A stretch of DNA of 42,110 nucleotides from a virus. Each line of letters opens with the position of its first letter. The first letter of the stretch is position 1. The notes under the pieces were generated by a model. The model was given only the letters and a program-made list of their open reading frames with translations. It had not been told where the DNA came from and ran no database searches. A program made the translations under genes and the position numbers. The DNA is taken from IMG/VR virus record IMGVR_UViG_3300035698_008016, positions 1 through 42,110 of that record, one strand, 5' to 3'. This document shows, piece after piece, positions 26,071 to 41,633 of the stretch.

Positions 26071-26100
26071 GTCATACGCCAATATTTGGTGTCTTGTCAA
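26071..26100 (-). promoter_or_regulatory. Candidate leftward promoter for the HTH and primase-helicase genes
   Basis: Minus strand TTGACA (26095-26100), 18-base spacer, TATGAC (26071-26076). The near-palindrome CCAATATTTGG (26079-26089) lies in the spacer and could be the operator of the 59-aa HTH protein. The promoter is back to back with the rightward candidate at 26041. Confidence 0.5.
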
Positions 26101-26120
26101 TCAACATGAGGAAAAACGCT

Positions 26121-26522
26121 ATGTCATTACTTCAAAACCCCAGTGAGGAATACCTGCAATCAATCGCTGAAGACCTGCGCGATAAGAACGTAAGATCAGA
26201 AATCTTGTCGGCGGGTCACCAGCTTACCAACCAAGACCGCAACCTGCAGTATGGTTCAGCGGATGGTAACTACACATCTGTGGCTGCCATCATGGAGATA
26301 CTGATCGAGCAGGGCAGTGGTCATCAGAGCCCCGCTGAGATTGCCGCTATCCAGCAGGTTGTCGTTAAACTTGTTCGCATGTCTCAGGGTCCGTGGAAGA
26401 AAGATAACTACATCGACGGCGCCGTATACATGGCTATCGCAGGCGAGATCGGCTACAACCGGCGGCCGCAGTCTCAAGGTGTTCACAGCTACGGTGTCGC
26501 CGAGAAGGAGGTATGCTCATAA
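26121..26522 (+). CDS. DUF6378-domain protein
   Basis: 133 aa. The ATG at 26121 has GAGGA eight bases upstream; an ATG at 26106 is possible. Residues about 40-125 fit DUF6378, common in phage nucleotide-metabolism clusters: RNLQYGSADGNYTSVAAIME, a helix with IQQVVVKLVRM, then KKDNYIDGAVYMAIAGEIG. The ligand and reaction of this family are not established; the arrangement of acidic and Lys/Asp residues recalls all-alpha NTP pyrophosphohydrolases. It heads the cassette of dNTP-metabolising genes. Confidence 0.7.
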   Translation: MSLLQNPSEEYLQSIAEDLRDKNVRSEILSAGHQLTNQDRNLQYGSADGNYTSVAAIMEILIEQGSGHQSPAEIAAIQQVVVKLVRMSQGPWKKDNYIDGAVYMAIAGEIGYNRRPQSQGVHSYGVAEKEVCS

Positions 26523-27253
26523 TGGTTAACGTCAATGACATACCCGATAGCGTTGTACCGAAGACAGACTGCCGACTCGCGTCAATCTACGACCGCCAAC
26601 GAGAGTTGATGGAGAAGTATGAGATCATCGAAGACCAGAACGGTTTGCTCCAGGTCCACGGCTATCCGGTCGATCTCCACGACAGGCATGGCCAAGCACG
26701 ACTAAAGGACTTTGCCTGGCGTGTTACCGAGGAGGTAACGGAAGCAACGTGTGCCATCATCGAGCACCCTCATGATCCGATACATATGCAGGAGGAGGTC
26801 TGCGATGCATACCACTTCTTCATCGAACTCATGATACTCGCCGGCGTCTCACCTGAGGACACAGTTGAGTGGATGGTGATGAAAGACTACTACCAGCCTG
26901 GCTCCGCACAACACGCGTGCCGCCTCAAAGGTCTGTGGATGAAAGCGAAACCTCCGCAAGAGATGGTCGACATGGCCGAGATACTGGCGGCGGCACCGAC
27001 CATGCACCTCCGTAACTTCACGGCGTACAAGTTCATTGAGCATATTGGTCTGGCAATGAACTGCCTGAAGCAGAAGCCCTGGAAGCAAACACACTTCCAC
27101 ACGGATACAAAGAAGTTCATCGACCATCTCCATGACGCACATGAGGCATTCGTCTGGTTTGCAAAGTCCTGCGGCCTGGGCTATGACACAGTCTATCAGC
27201 TGTACTTCAAAAAGTCGGAAGTTAACATATTCCGGCAGCGGAGCAAGTATTGA
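26522..27253 (+). CDS. All-alpha dUTPase/dCTPase-like nucleotide pyrophosphohydrolase
   Basis: 243 aa. The start at 26522 lies ten bases after AAGGAGG; the ATG at 26513 is too close to it. The metal-binding signature of dimeric all-alpha NTP-PPases is present: WRVTEEVTEAT (EExxE) and then MQEEVCDAYHFFIEL (EExxD), with 25-30 residues between. The C-terminus LYFKKSEVNIFRQRSKY matches the end of dimeric dUTPases. The T4 dCTPase-dUTPase is in the same superfamily, so substrate may be dUTP, dCTP or both. It would deliver dUMP or dCMP to the ThyA-like enzymes downstream. Confidence 0.75.
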   Translation: MVNVNDIPDSVVPKTDCRLASIYDRQRELMEKYEIIEDQNGLLQVHGYPVDLHDRHGQARLKDFAWRVTEEVTEATCAIIEHPHDPIHMQEEVCDAYHFFIELMILAGVSPEDTVEWMVMKDYYQPGSAQHACRLKGLWMKAKPPQEMVDMAEILAAAPTMHLRNFTAYKFIEHIGLAMNCLKQKPWKQTHFHTDTKKFIDHLHDAHEAFVWFAKSCGLGYDTVYQLYFKKSEVNIFRQRSKY

Positions 27254-28014
27254 AGTCCTTCGAGGCTCAGTGGGCACGGTGGGTAAGCGACCTCTTTATG
27301 GGGGAGCCTATCCACCGCTCTGGTGTTCAAATGATCTTCAGAAACCAGAGCATGCGACTCACAGGGAGGCAGTTCCTCGATAGCACCATGACACTTGATG
27401 GCTCCGGTTACACGAACATGAAGCTCACGATGCTGAAGAACCACTACCTACCTGAGGGTGCCATTGAGAAGGCACGTGGTATCCTCGCCGACCGAGTCAA
27501 GACTAAGAAGTACGGCTCTGCACTGATACCACATCAGGGTAAGGTGAAGACGGGTTTCACCAAGCAGGATTTCTGCATGATCGGAACCACTATCACGTAT
27601 ATCCCCAAGAAAGGCTTCTATTGGAACACACACTGGCGGACAGCTGAGGTTACCAAGCGGCTACGCGGTGACTTCGTGTTCCTACGTTATATACATGGTG
27701 AGCTGGAGGATATCATCGGCCGTCCTCGTCGAGTACAGTTCCTGTGGGACAACGTCACCGCGCATCCGATGTTCTTCCTACTGCTTATCGCTCGTCACCC
27801 CCGATGGGAGAAAGTGCTTGACCTGTGTGACGAGCGTACCCGGAGGGATTGTCTCAAGTGGCTGTACTACTATCTCGTTGACCCCGATGAGCCATATACA
27901 CGATATTCCTCGGCGCATCAGGTTCGCAAAATTGCTGATCGTCAAATGGATGTTGACACGTTAAAACGGGTAGCGCAATATGTACAACGTCACTTCACAC
28001 CAAAGGAAAAGTAA
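27250..28014 (+). CDS. Divergent ThyA-fold-like protein, uncharacterised
   Basis: 254 aa from a TTG that overlaps the upstream stop (TTGA); an in-frame ATG is at 27298. I know no named family for it, but the centre follows thymidylate-synthase spacing. Cys109 (KQDFCMIG) is 21 residues before Arg130, which begins RTAEVTKRLRGDF; Glu133 and Asp141 sit where ThyA has Asp169 and Asn177; His172 is in VTAHPMF, 31 residues further on. ThyA spacings are 20, 11 and 30. An upstream RVKTKKYGS segment could be the phosphate-binding arginine region. The gene sits inside the nucleotide cassette. This assignment is an inference that needs a profile or structure search. Confidence 0.5.
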   Translation: MKSFEAQWARWVSDLFMGEPIHRSGVQMIFRNQSMRLTGRQFLDSTMTLDGSGYTNMKLTMLKNHYLPEGAIEKARGILADRVKTKKYGSALIPHQGKVKTGFTKQDFCMIGTTITYIPKKGFYWNTHWRTAEVTKRLRGDFVFLRYIHGELEDIIGRPRRVQFLWDNVTAHPMFFLLLIARHPRWEKVLDLCDERTRRDCLKWLYYYLVDPDEPYTRYSSAHQVRKIADRQMDVDTLKRVAQYVQRHFTPKEK

Positions 28015-28015
28015 C

Positions 28016-28225
28016 ATGAAACTAACCGAAAAAGATGAAAGGGACCTGCCCAGAGATGAGAACAAGGTCTGGGCCCTTTCCGTCAACCGTCCGCTACGGG
28101 AGCGTATCTATACGACGATTTTCTTCAACGGCTGCCCCGTAGGTGGCAACAGCAACCGTAAGAAGGCGCACCTCGCTGCACGTCAACTTGCCGGCAACTA
28201 CGACGCTTCCTTTACTTCAACCTAG
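28016..28225 (+). CDS. 69-aa hypothetical protein
   Basis: 69 aa, starting at 28016, where ATG follows AAGGAAAAGTAAC; a longer reading begins inside the preceding gene. Charged N-terminus (MKLTEKDERDLPRDENK), a strand pair (VWALSVNRPLRERIYTTIFF) and a Lys/Arg/Ala-rich end. It lies between the two ThyA-like genes. No family is recognised. Confidence 0.6.
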   Translation: MKLTEKDERDLPRDENKVWALSVNRPLRERIYTTIFFNGCPVGGNSNRKKAHLAARQLAGNYDASFTST

Positions 28226-28234
28226 GAGGGACAT

Positions 28235-28927
28235 ATGTCTCACAGATTTTACAAAGACTTCCCCGAGGCGTTCAGCGAACTGGGCCGTGAGCTCAAGGAG
28301 ATGGGCATCCACACGCAGACACGAACGATGCAGAACAAGAAGATAGTCGGCCAGAGCGACTACGATACCTATGAGCTGCGGAACTACATGTACACTGTGC
28401 TGACGCCGAGGCTTGAAGAGCTGTCGCCTGTACAGCCCTGGGCCGATGAAGAATTCGAAGAACGGATGCAGGGTGCGTGGGGTGCCCCGGAAAACCCTGG
28501 GGATGCCTACAAACTACGGCCCGAAATCTGGAAGGAGTTCCTCAACGATGATGGCAAGTTCTGCTACAGCTATAGTGAACGATGGGCACGCGACAGCCAG
28601 GTACGCGATGTGATTTCGGGGCTTCAGCGCGACCTCAACAGCCGGCAGGCTATCATCCAGATGTGGGGTTCCGATGACGCCAAGCGAATGGGCACCGTCC
28701 GCGTACCCTGCTCGTTGTACTGGCACTTCCTCTTCCGCGAGAATGCGCTACACCTGACCTACACCATGAGGTCATGTGATTACGCCACCCACTTCCAGAA
28801 TGACGTCTATCTGGCCATGAGGCTTGGTGAGTACATCGCCAAAACCCTGGATGTGCAGATGGGGTCATTCACGCACCTCATGCATAGTTTCCACGTCTAT
28901 CAGAAAGATGTCCGTGACGCGTTTTAA
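28235..28927 (+). CDS. ThyA-superfamily enzyme, predicted dCMP (hydroxy)methylase type
   Basis: 230 aa. It aligns without gaps to E. coli thymidylate synthase over the catalytic half: Cys159 (RVPCSL) = Cys146, Arg179-Ser180 and Asp182 (RSCD) = Arg166-Ser167 and Asp169, His220 and Tyr222 (FHVY) = His207 and Tyr209. Arg137 in NSRQAIIQMW is in the phosphate-binding loop. The nucleobase-selecting Asn177 is replaced by Asp190 (QNDVYL). Asp at this place is the hallmark of dCMP hydroxymethylase, and the same change in bacterial TS shifts specificity to dCMP. The likely product is 5-hydroxymethyl- or 5-methyl-dCMP. It lies between dUTPase/dCTPase-like and dCMP deaminase genes. Confidence 0.8.
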   Translation: MSHRFYKDFPEAFSELGRELKEMGIHTQTRTMQNKKIVGQSDYDTYELRNYMYTVLTPRLEELSPVQPWADEEFEERMQGAWGAPENPGDAYKLRPEIWKEFLNDDGKFCYSYSERWARDSQVRDVISGLQRDLNSRQAIIQMWGSDDAKRMGTVRVPCSLYWHFLFRENALHLTYTMRSCDYATHFQNDVYLAMRLGEYIAKTLDVQMGSFTHLMHSFHVYQKDVRDAF

Positions 28928-29201
28928 GCCGGCGGCCCACATGTACTACGGCACTGTTGGTGTAAGACCCATCAGTGACCGTATGGTGGGTCTCCAACAG
29001 CAGGAATGCTATCTTGGACCCGAAAGCCTTAATAGCCTAATCAAAGAACTTCAAAGGTTTCAGAAACATGACCCGATCCTCCAAGCACTCCAACCTGATA
29101 ACCCAGGCGTTCGTGATATCCCAGCGGGGTACGTGCGTCCGACGACAGGTTGGGTGCGTACTCGTCGATATAGAAGGTCACACAATAGGGACGGGCTATA
29201 A
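28908..29201 (+). CDS. Possible small protein between ThyA-like and dCMP deaminase genes
   Basis: An open frame fills the 140-base space between the two enzymes: ATG at 28908 (MSVTRFKPAAHMYYGTVGV) or 28941, running to 29201 and overlapping the deaminase by 134 bases. The first part has plausible protein composition (LNSLIKELQRFQKHDPI) but the overlapping end is Arg-rich and may be only an out-of-frame reading. No ribosome site stands out. Either a true short protein or noncoding spacer. Confidence 0.35.
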   Translation: MSVTRFKPAAHMYYGTVGVRPISDRMVGLQQQECYLGPESLNSLIKELQRFQKHDPILQALQPDNPGVRDIPAGYVRPTTGWVRTRRYRRSHNRDGL

Positions 29202-29532
29202 TGGCCCTCCCTCAGGCTGGCAGCACTGTACTGACGTGGCCTGTCCTGGGGCTACAGCTGCCTCCGGTGTTGGACTGGAGATTTGCGAGGCTATCCACGC
29301 CGAGCAGAACGCTCTCCTTCAAACATCAAGAGTCCGACATATCGAAGCGGCCTACGTCACCGATGCCCCATGCATCCATTGCACCAAGTTACTGCTCAAT
29401 ACGGGTTGTAAGCGTATTTATTACGCCCGATCCTACTCAGCCAGCGGAACATCACTGTGGCTCAAAGCGGGCAGAGAGATTATCCAAACTGATCCAGAGC
29501 CTGTGAACTGGGGGCGGATGCGTCGTGGGTAA
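29068..29532 (+). CDS. Deoxycytidylate deaminase
   Basis: 154 aa, zinc-dependent cytidine-deaminase fold of the dCMP deaminase type. Catalytic zinc ligands are His77 (with Glu79 as proton shuttle, IHAEQNALL) and Cys102/Cys105 (DAPCIHC). The N-terminal RGTCVRRQVGCVLV and TGYNGPPSG match the family. Extra Cys and His (HCTDVAC) fit the second zinc site found in phage enzymes such as T4 gpcd. It converts dCMP to dUMP and so balances pyrimidine pools beside the ThyA-like enzymes. Its 3' end overlaps the polymerase start by eight bases. Confidence 0.88.
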   Translation: MTRSSKHSNLITQAFVISQRGTCVRRQVGCVLVDIEGHTIGTGYNGPPSGWQHCTDVACPGATAASGVGLEICEAIHAEQNALLQTSRVRHIEAAYVTDAPCIHCTKLLLNTGCKRIYYARSYSASGTSLWLKAGREIIQTDPEPVNWGRMRRG

Positions 29533-31978
29533 GTTCGTCGAGTTTGACAGCGGCTGTCATCTGTGCCCACTCAATGAGGTAGCACAGGCTGTATGTGTAC
29601 CTGGTGTGGGCAATCGTAGAGCTGACATCATGGTCATCGGCGAGACACCTAGTTATTCGGGTAGTGCGTTCGGTGACGTCGGCGGTAAGTTGCTACTCAA
29701 GATGCTCGCTGACGCCGGCCTAAGTGAGAAAGATTTTTATTACACTCATGCGGTGCATTGTATACCCGAGTACGGCGAGAAAGCGCGTGCGGCACACCTG
29801 AAGGCTTGCAGGCACTGGTTATATCAGGAAATCGAACGCGTCAAGCCAAAGTACATACTACTACTGGGTAACATCGCACTATCCGCCTGCTTGGGTATGA
29901 CAGGTATATCCAAGCTTCGGGGTATACCCGTTGAACAAAATGGCATCATCTACCTGCCCACCTATGGGCCCGGCTACATCGTTAAGAATAAGGGTGAGAG
30001 AAGCACGGTCTCGGCGGATATCAACGCCTTCGCCACTATTGCAAAACATGGCAAGGTACCAGAGATGGAGGGTCTTAATTTTGTTATATGCGACACGAAG
30101 GAAACTATCGACGCAGGACTTAGAGAGATTAAGAGAGCCGGTCGGTGGGTTGACATCGACACTGAGACAAGCGGCCTTCATCAGTTTGAGCCTGGCGCTT
30201 TTATCGCCAGTATTGGTGTGGGTATTAAGGGTCATCAGTACTGCTTTGTGATGAACCACACCCAGGGTAATAACTTCCGCAAGTTTAAGGCCCAGCGTCG
30301 CATTGCTAACAAGATATACAATGTACTTAAAGATAAGAAGATCAATGCCCAGAATGGCAAGTTTGATACGCTGTTCTTGTGGGTTGTCTATGGCATCAAG
30401 CTGGACACTCACTTCGACACTATGCTAGCCCACTACAATCTCGATGAGAATAGCCGTCATGGTCTGGATGTGTTGGCCGCCAGGTACTTCGGGGCGCCGT
30501 CATATGATATACCGCTAGAGGAGAAACATGGCCGCGGCGACTTGACGAGGCACTGTGAGTACCTAGCGAGTGACCTCTACTGGACGCGCAGACTCCGTCT
30601 ACTATTCCAGAAACAACTACGAGAAGACCTCGCAACACAAAGGATTTTCTATGAGATAACCATGCCTCTCTCGAATCTCTATCGAGACATTGAGTACGAG
30701 GGTGTTTATATCGATCCGGCCAAGATCAAGGATGCTTGGGAGTTTTGGATCGAAGAACGAGACACCCAACTGGCAGCGCTGTCTGAGTATATCACTGATG
30801 ATCGGAAGTGGTTTGACAAGAAGCAGAAAGCCTGGGTACCTGGTATCAACTGGGCCTCCGCGGACCAAGTGTCAGAATTCCTGTTCGGGGAGCTGGGCCT
30901 CACACCACTCGATAAGACCGGCACAGGTAAGAATAGTGTCGCTGAGAGTGTTCTGCTACGTCTCATTGAGGACGGGGCTGAGGTTGCGAGTACGATCCTC
31001 AAGTTCAGGTTGGCGGACAAGCAGTCGGGCACGTTTCTCAAGAGTTGGTCCGAGAAACTTGTCAACAACCGTCTTCACCCCAACTTCAAAATCCACGGAG
31101 CCGTCACGGGACGCCCTGCGTGTGAAGAGCCAAACCTACAAGCAACACCTCGAGACCCCAGAGTTAGATCGCTTATTACAGCTCCTCCAGGATGGACCCT
31201 GGTCGAAGTCGATCAGTCCCAAGCTGAGATGCGAATTGCTGCAGAGATGTCTGGAGACGAAGGCCTTGCTAGATGCTTCCGAGAAGGCATAGATGTCCAC
31301 ACGCTAATTGTCCAGACCACCTTCGGTATCATGAACCCCACATATGAGGAACGTAAGAAGGGTAAGGCTATTAACTTCGGCTTCCTCTACGGCATGTGGT
31401 GGAAAAAGTTCCTTATATATGCACGCGATAACTATGGAGTAACGGTCAGTGCCAAAGAAGCCAAGCAAGCCAGAATTACCTACTTCAAAACGTGGTCCTC
31501 CCTCGAGACCTGGCATAAACGACAGAAGAGCTACGCCCGACGCCATGGGTACGTTCGCTCGCTTATGGGTAGGAAGCGCAGACTCCCCGATGCACTATCA
31601 GTCATCGATAGTAATGATCGCCGTGCGGCGGAGCGTCAGGCTATCAATTCACCTGTGCAGGGCTTCGCGAGTGATTGGAATGTCCTTGCTGCGTTGGAGA
31701 TGCAGCAGAGACTTGACCCTAAACGGGCTAGGCTATGCGGGACTGTTCATGACTGCGTTCTTATTCTTGTTCGTAATGACTATCTGAATATTGCGGTACC
31801 GCTTATCAAATCCATCATGGACCTGCCCGATGCGGTAGGTACAGTCTTCAGAGTTCGCATGAGGATCAAGATGATAGGCGACATAAAAATCGGTCCCTGG
31901 AATGCCTCACGCGAATGGGAGGGTGAGAAAATCCCAGTTGACAAGGAAAAGCTGCTCGAATACATTGCTGCTCGTTGA
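29525..31978 (+). CDS. DNA polymerase, family A, with N-terminal UDG-like Fe-S domain
   Basis: 817 aa, GTG start overlapping the deaminase stop. Residues 1-160 resemble family-4 uracil-DNA glycosylase, with four spaced cysteines for a 4Fe-4S cluster (Cys11, Cys14, Cys79, Cys95). The catalytic GEAPG-E motif is GETPSYSG, and the HPS motif is replaced by YGPGY, so glycosylase activity is probably lost. The 3'-5' exonuclease follows: VDIDTETSG (Asp212, Glu214), NAQNGKFD and LASDLYW. Polymerase motifs: A EVDQSQAEMR, B RKKGKAINFGFLYG and C TVHDCV, where the usual HDE is HDC but the metal-binding Asp is kept. Similar UDG-PolA fusions are known in SPO1-type phages. Confidence 0.9.
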   Translation: MGKFVEFDSGCHLCPLNEVAQAVCVPGVGNRRADIMVIGETPSYSGSAFGDVGGKLLLKMLADAGLSEKDFYYTHAVHCIPEYGEKARAAHLKACRHWLYQEIERVKPKYILLLGNIALSACLGMTGISKLRGIPVEQNGIIYLPTYGPGYIVKNKGERSTVSADINAFATIAKHGKVPEMEGLNFVICDTKETIDAGLREIKRAGRWVDIDTETSGLHQFEPGAFIASIGVGIKGHQYCFVMNHTQGNNFRKFKAQRRIANKIYNVLKDKKINAQNGKFDTLFLWVVYGIKLDTHFDTMLAHYNLDENSRHGLDVLAARYFGAPSYDIPLEEKHGRGDLTRHCEYLASDLYWTRRLRLLFQKQLREDLATQRIFYEITMPLSNLYRDIEYEGVYIDPAKIKDAWEFWIEERDTQLAALSEYITDDRKWFDKKQKAWVPGINWASADQVSEFLFGELGLTPLDKTGTGKNSVAESVLLRLIEDGAEVASTILKFRLADKQSGTFLKSWSEKLVNNRLHPNFKIHGAVTGRPACEEPNLQATPRDPRVRSLITAPPGWTLVEVDQSQAEMRIAAEMSGDEGLARCFREGIDVHTLIVQTTFGIMNPTYEERKKGKAINFGFLYGMWWKKFLIYARDNYGVTVSAKEAKQARITYFKTWSSLETWHKRQKSYARRHGYVRSLMGRKRRLPDALSVIDSNDRRAAERQAINSPVQGFASDWNVLAALEMQQRLDPKRARLCGTVHDCVLILVRNDYLNIAVPLIKSIMDLPDAVGTVFRVRMRIKMIGDIKIGPWNASREWEGEKIPVDKEKLLEYIAAR

Positions 31979-38400: not shown

Positions 38401-38811
38401 TTAATCTATGTCATTGTAGAAAACGTGACCACCCTCACCGAAGCAGGGTAGTTTACCATCGGACCAACTTGGCTCGATCTCTTTCGTGTGATAGTGTGTG
38501 GCACCGTGCGTAAAGTCAGACTCTGCCAGAGCCTCCTCAACGGCACGTCGGCACTGCCGGTAAGCAGCATCACCAGCCGTTAAGCGCTTCATACGTGCGG
38601 CATTGGGATCATCGGTGTTCCACGCCGAGAACTGACGCCACCTCAAGCATGTAGCCGCGATGCAAGTATCACGACCAAAGCGTTCGGACCGGGTTCGATT
38701 GATGATAACGTGGGCCACGGCCTTCTGACTCTGATAGGTCTCACCGCGGGCCTCACCCCATAGTGTGCGGGCAGCGATGTCCAGGTCGGCGTCGATTATG
38801 AGTAGGGTCAT
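38401..38811 (-). CDS. Endolysin, SleB-like cell-wall hydrolase (Hydrolase_2)
   Basis: 136 aa. The start of the fold AARTLWGEARGET (residues 13-25) with Glu20 is the Hydrolase_2/SleB signature. It is followed by AVAHVIINRTRSERFG, CLRWRQFSAWN and a late THYHTKEIEPSW plus GHVFYND, all family features. These enzymes cleave peptidoglycan glycan strands, probably as lytic transglycosylases. No signal peptide is present, so it needs the holin to reach the wall. Four-base overlap with the 941-aa gene. Confidence 0.88.
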   Translation of the reverse strand: MTLLIIDADLDIAARTLWGEARGETYQSQKAVAHVIINRTRSERFGRDTCIAATCLRWRQFSAWNTDDPNAARMKRLTAGDAAYRQCRRAVEEALAESDFTHGATHYHTKEIEPSWSDGKLPCFGEGGHVFYNDID

Positions 38812-41633
38812 TTTTGTTCCTGTTCTTCCTGTACATTTCGATAGCCGAGTGTCATAAGATGCAGCCTCACTTTCTTAAGGTATTTTGCGGGGGCACGGGC
38901 CATCAAGGCTTTGTCCATAAGATCACGCGCGATCACAGGGTCGATGATGGCTCGTTCGAGTAGTGCCTGGACTTCTTCATCCATCATGCGGCCAACCGTA
39001 GAGTTAACGAGTCGGGCGGTGACTTCTGAGGCAACGAAGCGAGGTGAAACAACACCACGTGCCACCGAATAAAAACGGGACAGCAGCCCAGGCATAGTCA
39101 TCGAACTCATTGCGGCGTTAAGCGGACCTGAGCCCGTGTCACCCCCGGCAACGGACCGCGGTACCAGTGCACTCATCTCCTTTGCCTTGATAGCCTCGTT
39201 GGCGATACCCTTAAGGTTTTTGATGTGAGCATCATTATAGCCCAGTGCCTTCAGCGAGCGCTGTGTAGTGGGGTCATTGATGAAGTCACGCATTAGCTCA
39301 GGTTTGTGGAAGACAGTCTGGTAGGTGTCACCAGCCTCCATATGCATGTACTTATCCTGGAAACCATCCCAGAATGCCCGGCGGATACCCGACTGCGCCT
39401 CAACATCATTACGAGTCTGATGCATCAGTGCGGCTAGCTTTTTGGGTGCGTTCTTGCTGCCGATGATGGTACCCATCGATTTAGCGGGATCCTCCCCCAG
39501 TGCCAGCGTTGAAGCATTCTTATCCACAGTAGACTGGAGTCGACGTGCGCGACCGCTAAGCGCATCGAACCGGGCCTGCGTGCGACCTGCGTCCAGCAGT
39601 TTGGCACCAATCTCGGGGAATTCCTCGAAGACACCTCGGAAGTTCCTCGTGACAAATGTTCGAAGGCGGTCCGGCCTAAGCATACCTTTGCCATCGGTGG
39701 AGAACTCGTAGGCAACACGGTAGAGATGATCCTCAATCATCTGCTTCTGGGGCATCGTCATGTCACCTGACTTGACGGTGGACCCATCGAGTTTAATACC
39801 ACCGACAGCTGCCTTCAGTTGCTGAGCAGACTCCCGGCTACCTGAACCCGCATTAAGGTAGGCCTGGAGGGTAGCGGACTCTGGGATAATATCCGGGGAG
39901 TCCAACGCACCCTGTCGGTGGATACGCGCTGATGTGCCATGTCTGAATATAGCAGCACCGCGGCGTTGGAATTCTGATGCAGTCTTGTATCTCTTAGCAG
40001 TGGTGGGGTACACGGAGCTACCGCCGATGCTGTCCAATGTGATCTGGGTGGCATCGAGAATACTGCGGATACGGTTTTTAGCACCGGGGTCTTTGGTGAG
40101 GTTCATCTCCTTCTTCAAGTTATTACGCAGTGCGCGGAATTCCTCAAAGTTCTCACCTTTGCCGAAGTTCTGGATAATTGTGTAGAGACGGCGTTCGTCA
40201 CCGACCATCCTGTCGGTCTTCCTCATACGAGCACGCGCCTGCCTGACAGCACCTTTTACCTGACCCGTTGGCCATTTAGCAAAGCCGTCGGGATCAACGG
40301 CGTCGTAGGCCTTGCGAACATCCGCGGTAAATGAGCCCTTAGCCTCAGTCAGTGCTTGACGGATGCCCCGATTAACCACCATCGGATCAACGCCTTTAGC
40401 CGCCAGTGCATTTTCAATTGCAAGGTTCTCGTACAGGCTGACTCGTTCGTCCAGGGTTTTCATTAGCGAATTAACGCGTGTATCAATCGATTGCGTTGCT
40501 GCTTCGAATCCTGGGCCTCCGGGTTTCGATACAGCAGGCCCGCTGTTGATTGTGATATCATATGACTGCTTCAACTTATCACCCATCGCCGCCACGTTGT
40601 TCTCGATCTGTGCTGCAACCCGCGGTGACTTAGGCACGATCTCTTTAAACAGCCGGCCTAGCCCGGGGTCATTTGCGGTAACGTGGGTCGGCGGGTCAAC
40701 CACAGAGAATGGTGCAGGGGGACCGTCGATAGCATCCGTTAGTCGCTGACCCGAGAGGAGTACGTTGGTCGATCGATCTATTAGCATGTTGCCGACCTTT
40801 TTCTCTGCCAAGCCCTGAGCCTTCTTTTGGCTGGAAGAGATCGCTGCGTTGTCACCTTGACCTGCACGTATACCCTCGCCGGCACCTTTGATGGCACTGC
40901 CGGCACGACCAATAACACCTGCCGTGGTGGTCGCAACCTTGGCGGCGGCGAATGGTGACACGGCACCTGCAAAGCTGCCCAGCATGTCAGCGGTGGTGTT
41001 ACCAGGTGCAGCCTCATTTGCGATACCGGCACCGGCACCGGCACCGACAGCACTGACAGCCTCTGCCCCGACGGCTCGGGGTGCATTCCGCTGGAAGGGC
41101 TCCGTCATCCCACGGACCAGGGCGTTGCTACCCTGCGTACCCTGACGTGCCTTATTAAGCAAAGCACCGCCGGGTATTACGCTAGCCCCCACCTCTTGAC
41201 CGACGCGTCTTAAGATACGCTCCTTCCGGGTCAGCGGACCTTCCACTGCCCTGGAGCTAACATCATCGATGAGCCCAAAACCCGACATACCATTAAGTAC
41301 AGCCCTTTTGCCGATACTGCTGTCAAACTCAACGCCGCCGGTCATGTCGTATCCAGTGGTGGATTTAAGGAGATCACGGATGCCGTTGATAGCCATCGTG
41401 GGTAAATCCATTGCCATGCCGGCCACGGTTGCAGCACCCTCATTTGCACCGCCCGCGGTGATTGCGATGCCGCGGATAACATTCTCACCGCCGGATCGTG
41501 AGTTAACAATCTTGGCGTTATCGCTAGCCTCCAGTGCCTCAAGAACATTTAGCTCGTTCTCCTCGGTCATCGGACCTTCAAGTCTCTCAAGTAACGCAAG
41601 CTCTTGCGCTTCTGTCATTACACCGCCGGCCAT
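38808..41633 (-). CDS. Large internal virion / DNA-ejection-like protein
   Basis: 941 aa. The N-terminal 300 residues alternate helices with Gly/Ala-rich hydrophobic stretches (AVSAVGAGAGAGIANEAAPG, then SFAGAVSPFAAAKVATTTAG), a composition seen in podovirus internal core proteins that enter the host membrane during ejection. Residues about 310-900 are long charged helices (VRKAYDAVDPDGFAKWPTG, KEMNLTKDPGAKNRIRSILD). The protein follows the other internal virion gene by a one-base overlap and precedes the endolysin. No lysozyme or transglycosylase motif is found inside it. Role inferred. Confidence 0.7.
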   Translation of the reverse strand: MAGGVMTEAQELALLERLEGPMTEENELNVLEALEASDNAKIVNSRSGGENVIRGIAITAGGANEGAATVAGMAMDLPTMAINGIRDLLKSTTGYDMTGGVEFDSSIGKRAVLNGMSGFGLIDDVSSRAVEGPLTRKERILRRVGQEVGASVIPGGALLNKARQGTQGSNALVRGMTEPFQRNAPRAVGAEAVSAVGAGAGAGIANEAAPGNTTADMLGSFAGAVSPFAAAKVATTTAGVIGRAGSAIKGAGEGIRAGQGDNAAISSSQKKAQGLAEKKVGNMLIDRSTNVLLSGQRLTDAIDGPPAPFSVVDPPTHVTANDPGLGRLFKEIVPKSPRVAAQIENNVAAMGDKLKQSYDITINSGPAVSKPGGPGFEAATQSIDTRVNSLMKTLDERVSLYENLAIENALAAKGVDPMVVNRGIRQALTEAKGSFTADVRKAYDAVDPDGFAKWPTGQVKGAVRQARARMRKTDRMVGDERRLYTIIQNFGKGENFEEFRALRNNLKKEMNLTKDPGAKNRIRSILDATQITLDSIGGSSVYPTTAKRYKTASEFQRRGAAIFRHGTSARIHRQGALDSPDIIPESATLQAYLNAGSGSRESAQQLKAAVGGIKLDGSTVKSGDMTMPQKQMIEDHLYRVAYEFSTDGKGMLRPDRLRTFVTRNFRGVFEEFPEIGAKLLDAGRTQARFDALSGRARRLQSTVDKNASTLALGEDPAKSMGTIIGSKNAPKKLAALMHQTRNDVEAQSGIRRAFWDGFQDKYMHMEAGDTYQTVFHKPELMRDFINDPTTQRSLKALGYNDAHIKNLKGIANEAIKAKEMSALVPRSVAGGDTGSGPLNAAMSSMTMPGLLSRFYSVARGVVSPRFVASEVTARLVNSTVGRMMDEEVQALLERAIIDPVIARDLMDKALMARAPAKYLKKVRLHLMTLGYRNVQEEQEQK

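Follow-up and report, generated by a model that had tools for sequence, protein, structure and literature searches.

An Asp177-type thymidylate synthase homologue and its ThyA-fold partner in a recurrent phage gene cassette

Introduction

What does a thymidylate synthase homologue act on when the asparagine at its base-reading position has given way to aspartate? This question is raised by a gene at positions 28235-28927 (+ strand) of a 42,110-nucleotide viral sequence (IMG/VR record IMGVR_UViG_3300035698_008016), the whole of which is referred to here as the window. We call its product, an Asp177-type protein of the ThyA superfamily and a predicted dCMP C5-modifying enzyme, TS-D, and the product of the next large gene upstream, X. 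Thymidylate synthases (TS) with Asp177 are a known kind of phage protein and, in the MetaGPA study (PMC8670742), are linked to modified cytosine: Asp177 is presented there as an experimentally established dCMP determinant that marks the TS proteins of modified contigs. These proteins have the diagnostic Asp177 in common with TS-D, and some may belong to the clade described below. That study, in the sections consulted, reports TS and carbamoyltransferase and no second ThyA-fold partner. What is apparently undescribed is a clade of Asp177 TS proteins nearly always paired with a ThyA-fold protein that has the nucleophile, the arginine of the phosphate site and the aspartate that reads cytosine among its invariant residues; our literature search, which was thin on subscription journals and preprints, returned no description of the combination. 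Dozens of phages, isolated ones included, carry both genes.

An aspartate is invariant at the base-reading position of a phage-specific clade

The TS-D reading frame encodes 230 residues from an ATG start, in front of which lies a ribosome-binding sequence graded good (AGGAGGG). The protein matches Pfam PF00303 (Thymidylat_synt; E 7.6e-18, 65 bits against a cut-off of 24.3) and a PHROG of thymidylate synthases (E 2.3e-29), and its AlphaFold model (pLDDT 93.9) matches ThyA structures with Z of about 20, all of which bears out the superfamily assignment that a sequence-only reading of the window had made. The residue spacings cited in that reading are likewise exact, with 20 residues from Cys159 to Arg179, 11 from Arg179 to Asp190, 30 from Asp190 to His220 and 2 from His220 to Tyr222. 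Cys159 (codon 28709-28711, +), the counterpart of the nucleophile Cys146 of ThyA, is present in 92 of 92 aligned rows. The family was sampled as 80 viral loci fetched by family alignment (482 relatives in the collection) together with phage records; single-protein searches of viral contigs with the TS-D or X sequence gave no usable match, and a mixed alignment of X proteins offered no segment sufficiently conserved for searching.

The claim that Asn177 is replaced by Asp190 (codon GAC, 28802-28804, +) was upheld by profile alignment to E. coli ThyA, which is gapless from Arg166 to past Asn177. Asp179 of T4 gp42 and Asp194 of AfhB, a phage enzyme discussed below, fall in the same column. The position is Asp in all 72 non-redundant members of the clade and in 90 of the 92 rows before dereplication; the two rows with Asn are additional TS copies whose loci also carry an Asp copy. 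The aspartate is thus not a matter of chance. Asn189 was considered as the true residue 177 and rejected, as it aligns with position 176, a variable one in the family (34 N and 20 D, n=72). TS-D thus lacks the Asn177 of canonical thymidylate synthases and has the Asp177 of dCMP-type enzymes.

It could still be asked whether TS-D, despite its Asp177, works on dUMP as an ordinary or relaxed thymidylate synthase. It retains the fold and most of the residues that contact dUMP, and no ThyX was found in the window. However, we consider this reading very unlikely, given that Asp is invariant across the clade and that, where these viruses have a separate TS copy, that copy has Asn. In fact, in three viruses (L055, L018 and Microbacterium phage Huwbert) the Asp copy is accompanied by a distinct Asn177 copy, and in Huwbert the canonical gp68 (Asn177) directly follows gp67 (Asp177). 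ThyX, moreover, exceeds its family cut-off in 8 of 58 records. In viruses with a separate Asn177 TS or ThyX, the Asp copy is therefore not needed for dTMP.

Active-site residues and the nearest solved relatives

Arg126 and Ser167 of ThyA are kept in the TS-D family (Arg137 and Ser180 in TS-D). These residues are associated with deoxyribose rather than ribose substrates (PMC5175136), and their retention goes with a deoxyribonucleotide substrate. For example, MilA, a folate-dependent CMP 5-hydroxymethylase (5jnh, 5b6d, 5b6e, 5jp9), resembles TS-D in fold (Z 21.8) and in the aspartate at its base-reading position, but has Ala176 and Lys133, the ribonucleotide type, where TS-D has the deoxy-type Ser180 and Arg137 (PMC5175136). 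By precedent, then, the view that TS-D would act on dCMP is well supported, and this half of the sequence-only prediction of a dCMP hydroxymethylase or methylase stands on the Asp177 precedent and on Arg126 and Ser167. The chemistry that it named is less certain, given the hydroxylase precedent of AfhB.

The same reading held that every catalytic residue other than Asn177 is kept, which proved too strong: Arg127 is replaced by Gln138, His147 by Ser160, Leu143 by Arg156 and Gly173 by His186. His173 and Arg143 of the clade are found in none of the reference enzymes compared. The counterpart of ThyA Glu58 (T4 Glu60), which has a role in activation of methylene-folate in the T4-type enzyme, is placed differently by different aligners, and the candidate positions 71, 73 and 76 vary. 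On the folate side, Trp99 (codon 28529-28531, +; ThyA Trp80) and, on the pterin side, Asp182 (codon 28778-28780, +; ThyA Asp169) are each present in 72 of 72 members of the viral-locus set, as in the T4-type enzyme; at the Trp80 position a few isolated phages, among them some actinophage and Pseudomonas members, have Phe. T4 Asp171, which corresponds to ThyA Asp169, is part of the pterin water network in the T4 ternary complex (PMC6400193).

TS-D also lacks the C-terminal tail that closes over the folate in ThyA, as does T4 dCH (PMC6400193), and this absence argues against a dCMP methylase, whose 5-methyl-dCMP could serve 5mC DNA or a detour to dTMP through dCMP deaminase. An Asn177Asp change that turned bacterial TS into a dCMP methylase is cited in PMC8670742, and 28 of 71 related loci contain a homologue of dCMP deaminase. 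The detour, however, would be unneeded in phages with ThyX or a canonical ThyA, and we regard the methylase as unlikely.

T4 gp42, the dCMP hydroxymethylase, has Asp177, Cys146, Asp169, Trp80, Ser167 and a short C-terminus in common with TS-D, but is only about 19% identical to it, has Gly173 and Asp145 where TS-D has His and Arg, and lies on a separate branch. SPO1 gp29, a dUMP hydroxymethylase, resembles TS-D in superfamily, catalytic Cys and Arg, but has Asn at 177. In the tree TS-D falls in a 72-row phage-specific clade (support 99/98), apart from ThyA, SPO1 gp29, T4 gp42 and AfhB; T4 gp42 and SPO1 gp29 form long branches whose exact placement is unsure.

Among solved structures, AfhB (phage HY126; RB69 ORF048c), deposited as a riboflavin/FAD-dependent dCMP hydroxylase, comes closest to both TS-D and X. 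We take its activity from the titles of its PDB entries 9iqc and 9iqu, which name a dCMP hydroxylase and a riboflavin-dependent monooxygenase with dCMP and FAD, and from PMC13390438, where a TS-superfamily enzyme of RB69-like phages is reported to make 5-hydroxy-dCMP and the DNA to contain 5-hydroxy-dC. RB69-like records often label the homologue of AfhB (L094:124-840, RB69 ORF048c) dCMP hydroxymethylase, while these sources give 5-hydroxylation. Because AfhB is deposited as a flavin-dependent hydroxylase, Asp177 by itself indicates cytosine preference and not one-carbon transfer. TS-D might accordingly hydroxylate dCMP at C5 with the help of flavin, in the manner ascribed to AfhB, and the resulting 5-hydroxy-dCMP would later be glycosylated in DNA. 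Indeed, AfhB is the top structural match to the TS-D model (Z 22.3, 27% identity), in a tie with MilA, and the strongest profile match tried (E 3e-25), above ThyA and T4 gp42, with four sequences in the AfhB profile and one in each of the others. The two proteins have in common the ThyA fold, Asp177, Cys146, Arg166 and Ser167. AfhB and its relatives nevertheless form a separate branch, and they have Tyr80, Asn169, Val173 and Glu143 where the TS-D clade has Trp, Asp, His and Arg; this residue set is our own criterion, drawn from four relatives, of which the Rhizobium member is unaligned at position 80. Furthermore, sugar-modifying genes adjoin the RB69-type enzyme (PMC13390438), whereas no glycosyltransferase was named when the main open reading frames of the window were scanned against Pfam and PHROG. 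We consider a flavin-dependent hydroxylase rather unlikely. The folate-type Trp80 and Asp169, which TS-D keeps and AfhB lacks, instead favor folate-dependent hydroxymethylation, a reading that these residues suggest but that is not proven.

A second ThyA-fold protein adjoins TS-D

The neighbor of TS-D, which the sequence-only reading passed over, likewise has the ThyA fold and an Asp at the base-reading position. X is encoded at 27250-28014 (+) from a TTG start, overlapping the end of the gene at 26513-27253. It is unannotated and highly diverged, with neither a Pfam match over cut-off (PF00303 included) nor a PHROG match, and its relatives match only PHROGs of unknown function. Two phage records name it pyrimidine hmase synthase without comment, indicating that annotation pipelines have detected the kinship; no function for X was found in the literature or records searched.

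The AlphaFold model of X (pLDDT 92) has AfhB as its best structural match (Foldseek 1.1e-6; VIA Z 14.3, rmsd 3.3 A over 177 aligned residues), and all 50 among the matches listed belong to the TS superfamily. In profile-profile comparison, X matches the TS-D family with E 1.2e-5 and AfhB with E 3e-5. The X profile gave no significant match against PDB sequences, where the best was again 9iqc (E 0.17), and none in hhalign against single ThyA or T4 sequences. The kinship of X to the ThyA superfamily is thus visible only by fold and by profile-profile comparison, and its identification as an AfhB orthologue is not supported. The short stretches of RB69, Acj9 and Klebsiella sequence that were searched showed no X partner near the AfhB homologue.

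In both the TS-D and the AfhB profile alignments, Cys109, Arg130, Glu133 and Asp141 of X fall on ThyA positions 146, 166, 169 and 177. Cys109 (codon 27574-27576, +) is present in 92 of the 92 X proteins with a letter there, Arg130 (27637-27639, +) in 90 of 93 and Asp141 (27670-27672, +) in 93 of 93. Also conserved are Tyr66 (92/92) and a Lys or Arg at residue 58 (91/92); Tyr66 may correspond to ThyA Tyr94, a point on which the two profile alignments disagree. The columns near Arg126/127 and His207/Tyr209 are unconserved, and Ala, Ser, Thr and Val all occur at position 167. From this pattern we infer that the X site may still bind and attack cytosine, in another sugar-phosphate setting.

The pair belongs to a recurrent, mainly viral cassette

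In 61 of 71 non-redundant loci, X and TS-D share a strand and are no more than about 1.6 kb apart; in 45 of them the gap is under 250 bases, and eight loci have two copies. By whole-record count, X is found in 50 of 58 records. TS-D is also encoded on nine prokaryote genome contigs, and X on seven of these, which indicates that the pair is mainly viral. In the window, the cassette consists of an all-alpha NTP pyrophosphatase of the dUTPase_2 type (26513-27253, +; PF08761, E 1.1e-6; PHROG 12184, E 3e-31), X, a small open reading frame of 81 residues with no Pfam or PHROG match (27980-28225, +), TS-D, a dCMP deaminase with its HAE and PCxxC zinc motifs intact (29068-29532, +; PF00383, E 1.5e-17; PHROG 174, E 1e-32) and a family A DNA polymerase with an N-terminal UDG-like domain (29525-31978, +; PF00476, PF01612, PF03167). 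Grouped by homology, the genes around TS-D in the 71 loci comprise PolA in 58 of them, a pyrophosphatase of the dUTPase_2 type in 51 and a nucleotide kinase in 23, besides the deaminase counted above. The sequence-only reading had remarked that a dNMP kinase is missing, and indeed neither a home-made profile nor PHROG 761 found one in the window.

The cassette of NTP pyrophosphatase, X, TS-D, deaminase and PolA recurs in unrelated phages, and it is present in isolated Gordonia Emalynviruses. The order NTP pyrophosphatase, X, TS-D, PolA is found, for example, in Serratia phage Serbin, Pseudomonas phage PMBT14, Yersinia phage P744, Streptomyces phage Zuko, Microbacterium phage Huwbert, Gordonia phages Feastonyeet and Azira, and Mycobacterium phage Muddy, a therapy phage. 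In Muddy the X/Asp177 TS pair is gp47 and gp46 (L112:4004-5673), annotated as hypothetical protein and thymidylate synthase, respectively.

In ten of the 71 loci no X was found near TS-D. Four of these (L036, L082, L083:6657-8009 and L090) have an asparagine-synthase-like gene, and three of the four also have a DNA methylase-like gene. That all four asparagine-synthase-like loci should fall among the ten has a chance probability of 2e-4, calculated after the association had been seen, and these genes may mark a different cytosine modification.

A possible route to modified cytosine, and the role of X

Our best explanation of these data is that TS-D is a dCMP-specific folate C5 enzyme and X a second cytosine-directed enzyme of the cassette; taking the two parts together, we are evenly poised on whether it is right. 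What the data establish is the residue, the predicted folds of the two proteins, the clade and their conserved pairing, whereas the substrate, cofactor and product, the part played by X and any modification of virion DNA follow by inference. In this scheme, the dUTPase_2-type pyrophosphatase would hydrolyze dCTP, both lowering dCTP and supplying dCMP. Cys159 of TS-D would then attack C6 of dCMP, with recognition and protonation of the cytosine by Asp190. C5 would most likely receive a one-carbon unit from folate, to be released by water as 5-hydroxymethyl-dCMP; 5-methyl-dCMP, were a hydride to end the reaction, would be the minor alternative. A host or unrecognized kinase could carry the product to the triphosphate, which the phage polymerase would then incorporate, and X would probably act on the TS-D product or on a different nucleotide form. 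Against this explanation stand AfhB as the nearest solved structure, the unplaced Glu58/Glu60, His173 and Arg143, and the lack of a kinase in the window. The literature searched contained no measurement of enzyme activity or DNA modification for any member of the clade.

More specifically, X might be a catalytically active enzyme that performs the second of two steps in a cytosine pathway, following the formation of 5-hydroxymethyl-dCMP or 5-hydroxy-dCMP by TS-D. It would form the same Cys-C6 adduct on the TS-D product, in a different sugar-phosphate setting, and would add a new substituent through an exocyclic methylene, or else act on the triphosphate or on DNA. We hold this to be possible but doubtful. 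If X were active, thymidylate-synthase chemistry would be applied twice to one base; such hypermodification by the thymidylate-synthase fold would extend to phages of Proteobacteria and Actinobacteria and to many gut and environmental viruses.

X may instead be no enzyme itself but a partner subunit in hetero-dimers with TS-D, a reading compatible with several of those considered for TS-D and, in our view, possible but less likely than not. It is in keeping with the adjacency and common orientation of the two genes in most loci, with the unconserved Arg126/127 positions of X and with the fact that ThyA-type active sites span both subunits (PMC6400193). Yet Cys146, Arg166 and Asp177 are among the very few invariant residues of X, and a structural partner would need none of them. 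In addition, no X was found near TS-D in the ten loci noted above, four of which have the asparagine-synthase-like gene instead.

Further features of the window and of related loci

Just before the cassette lies a gene for a DUF6378 protein (26094-26522), relatives of which are called phosphofructokinase by PHROGs, probably a borrowed name. Residues 26-159 of the polymerase (PF03167) have motifs that appear degenerate by eye, with GETPS at one and YGPGY replacing the histidine motif, and this UDG-like domain may be inactive as a glycosylase. Elsewhere in the window, a 941-residue open reading frame (38808-41633, - strand) has no Pfam or PHROG match. Finally, in the Pseudomonas phages Lebethron and STP12 a third short protein is encoded between TS-D and the deaminase (L003:6259-6786 and L009:2987-3520); it has a Cys, an Arg-Ser and an Asp at ThyA-like spacing, and the extended X profile matches it.
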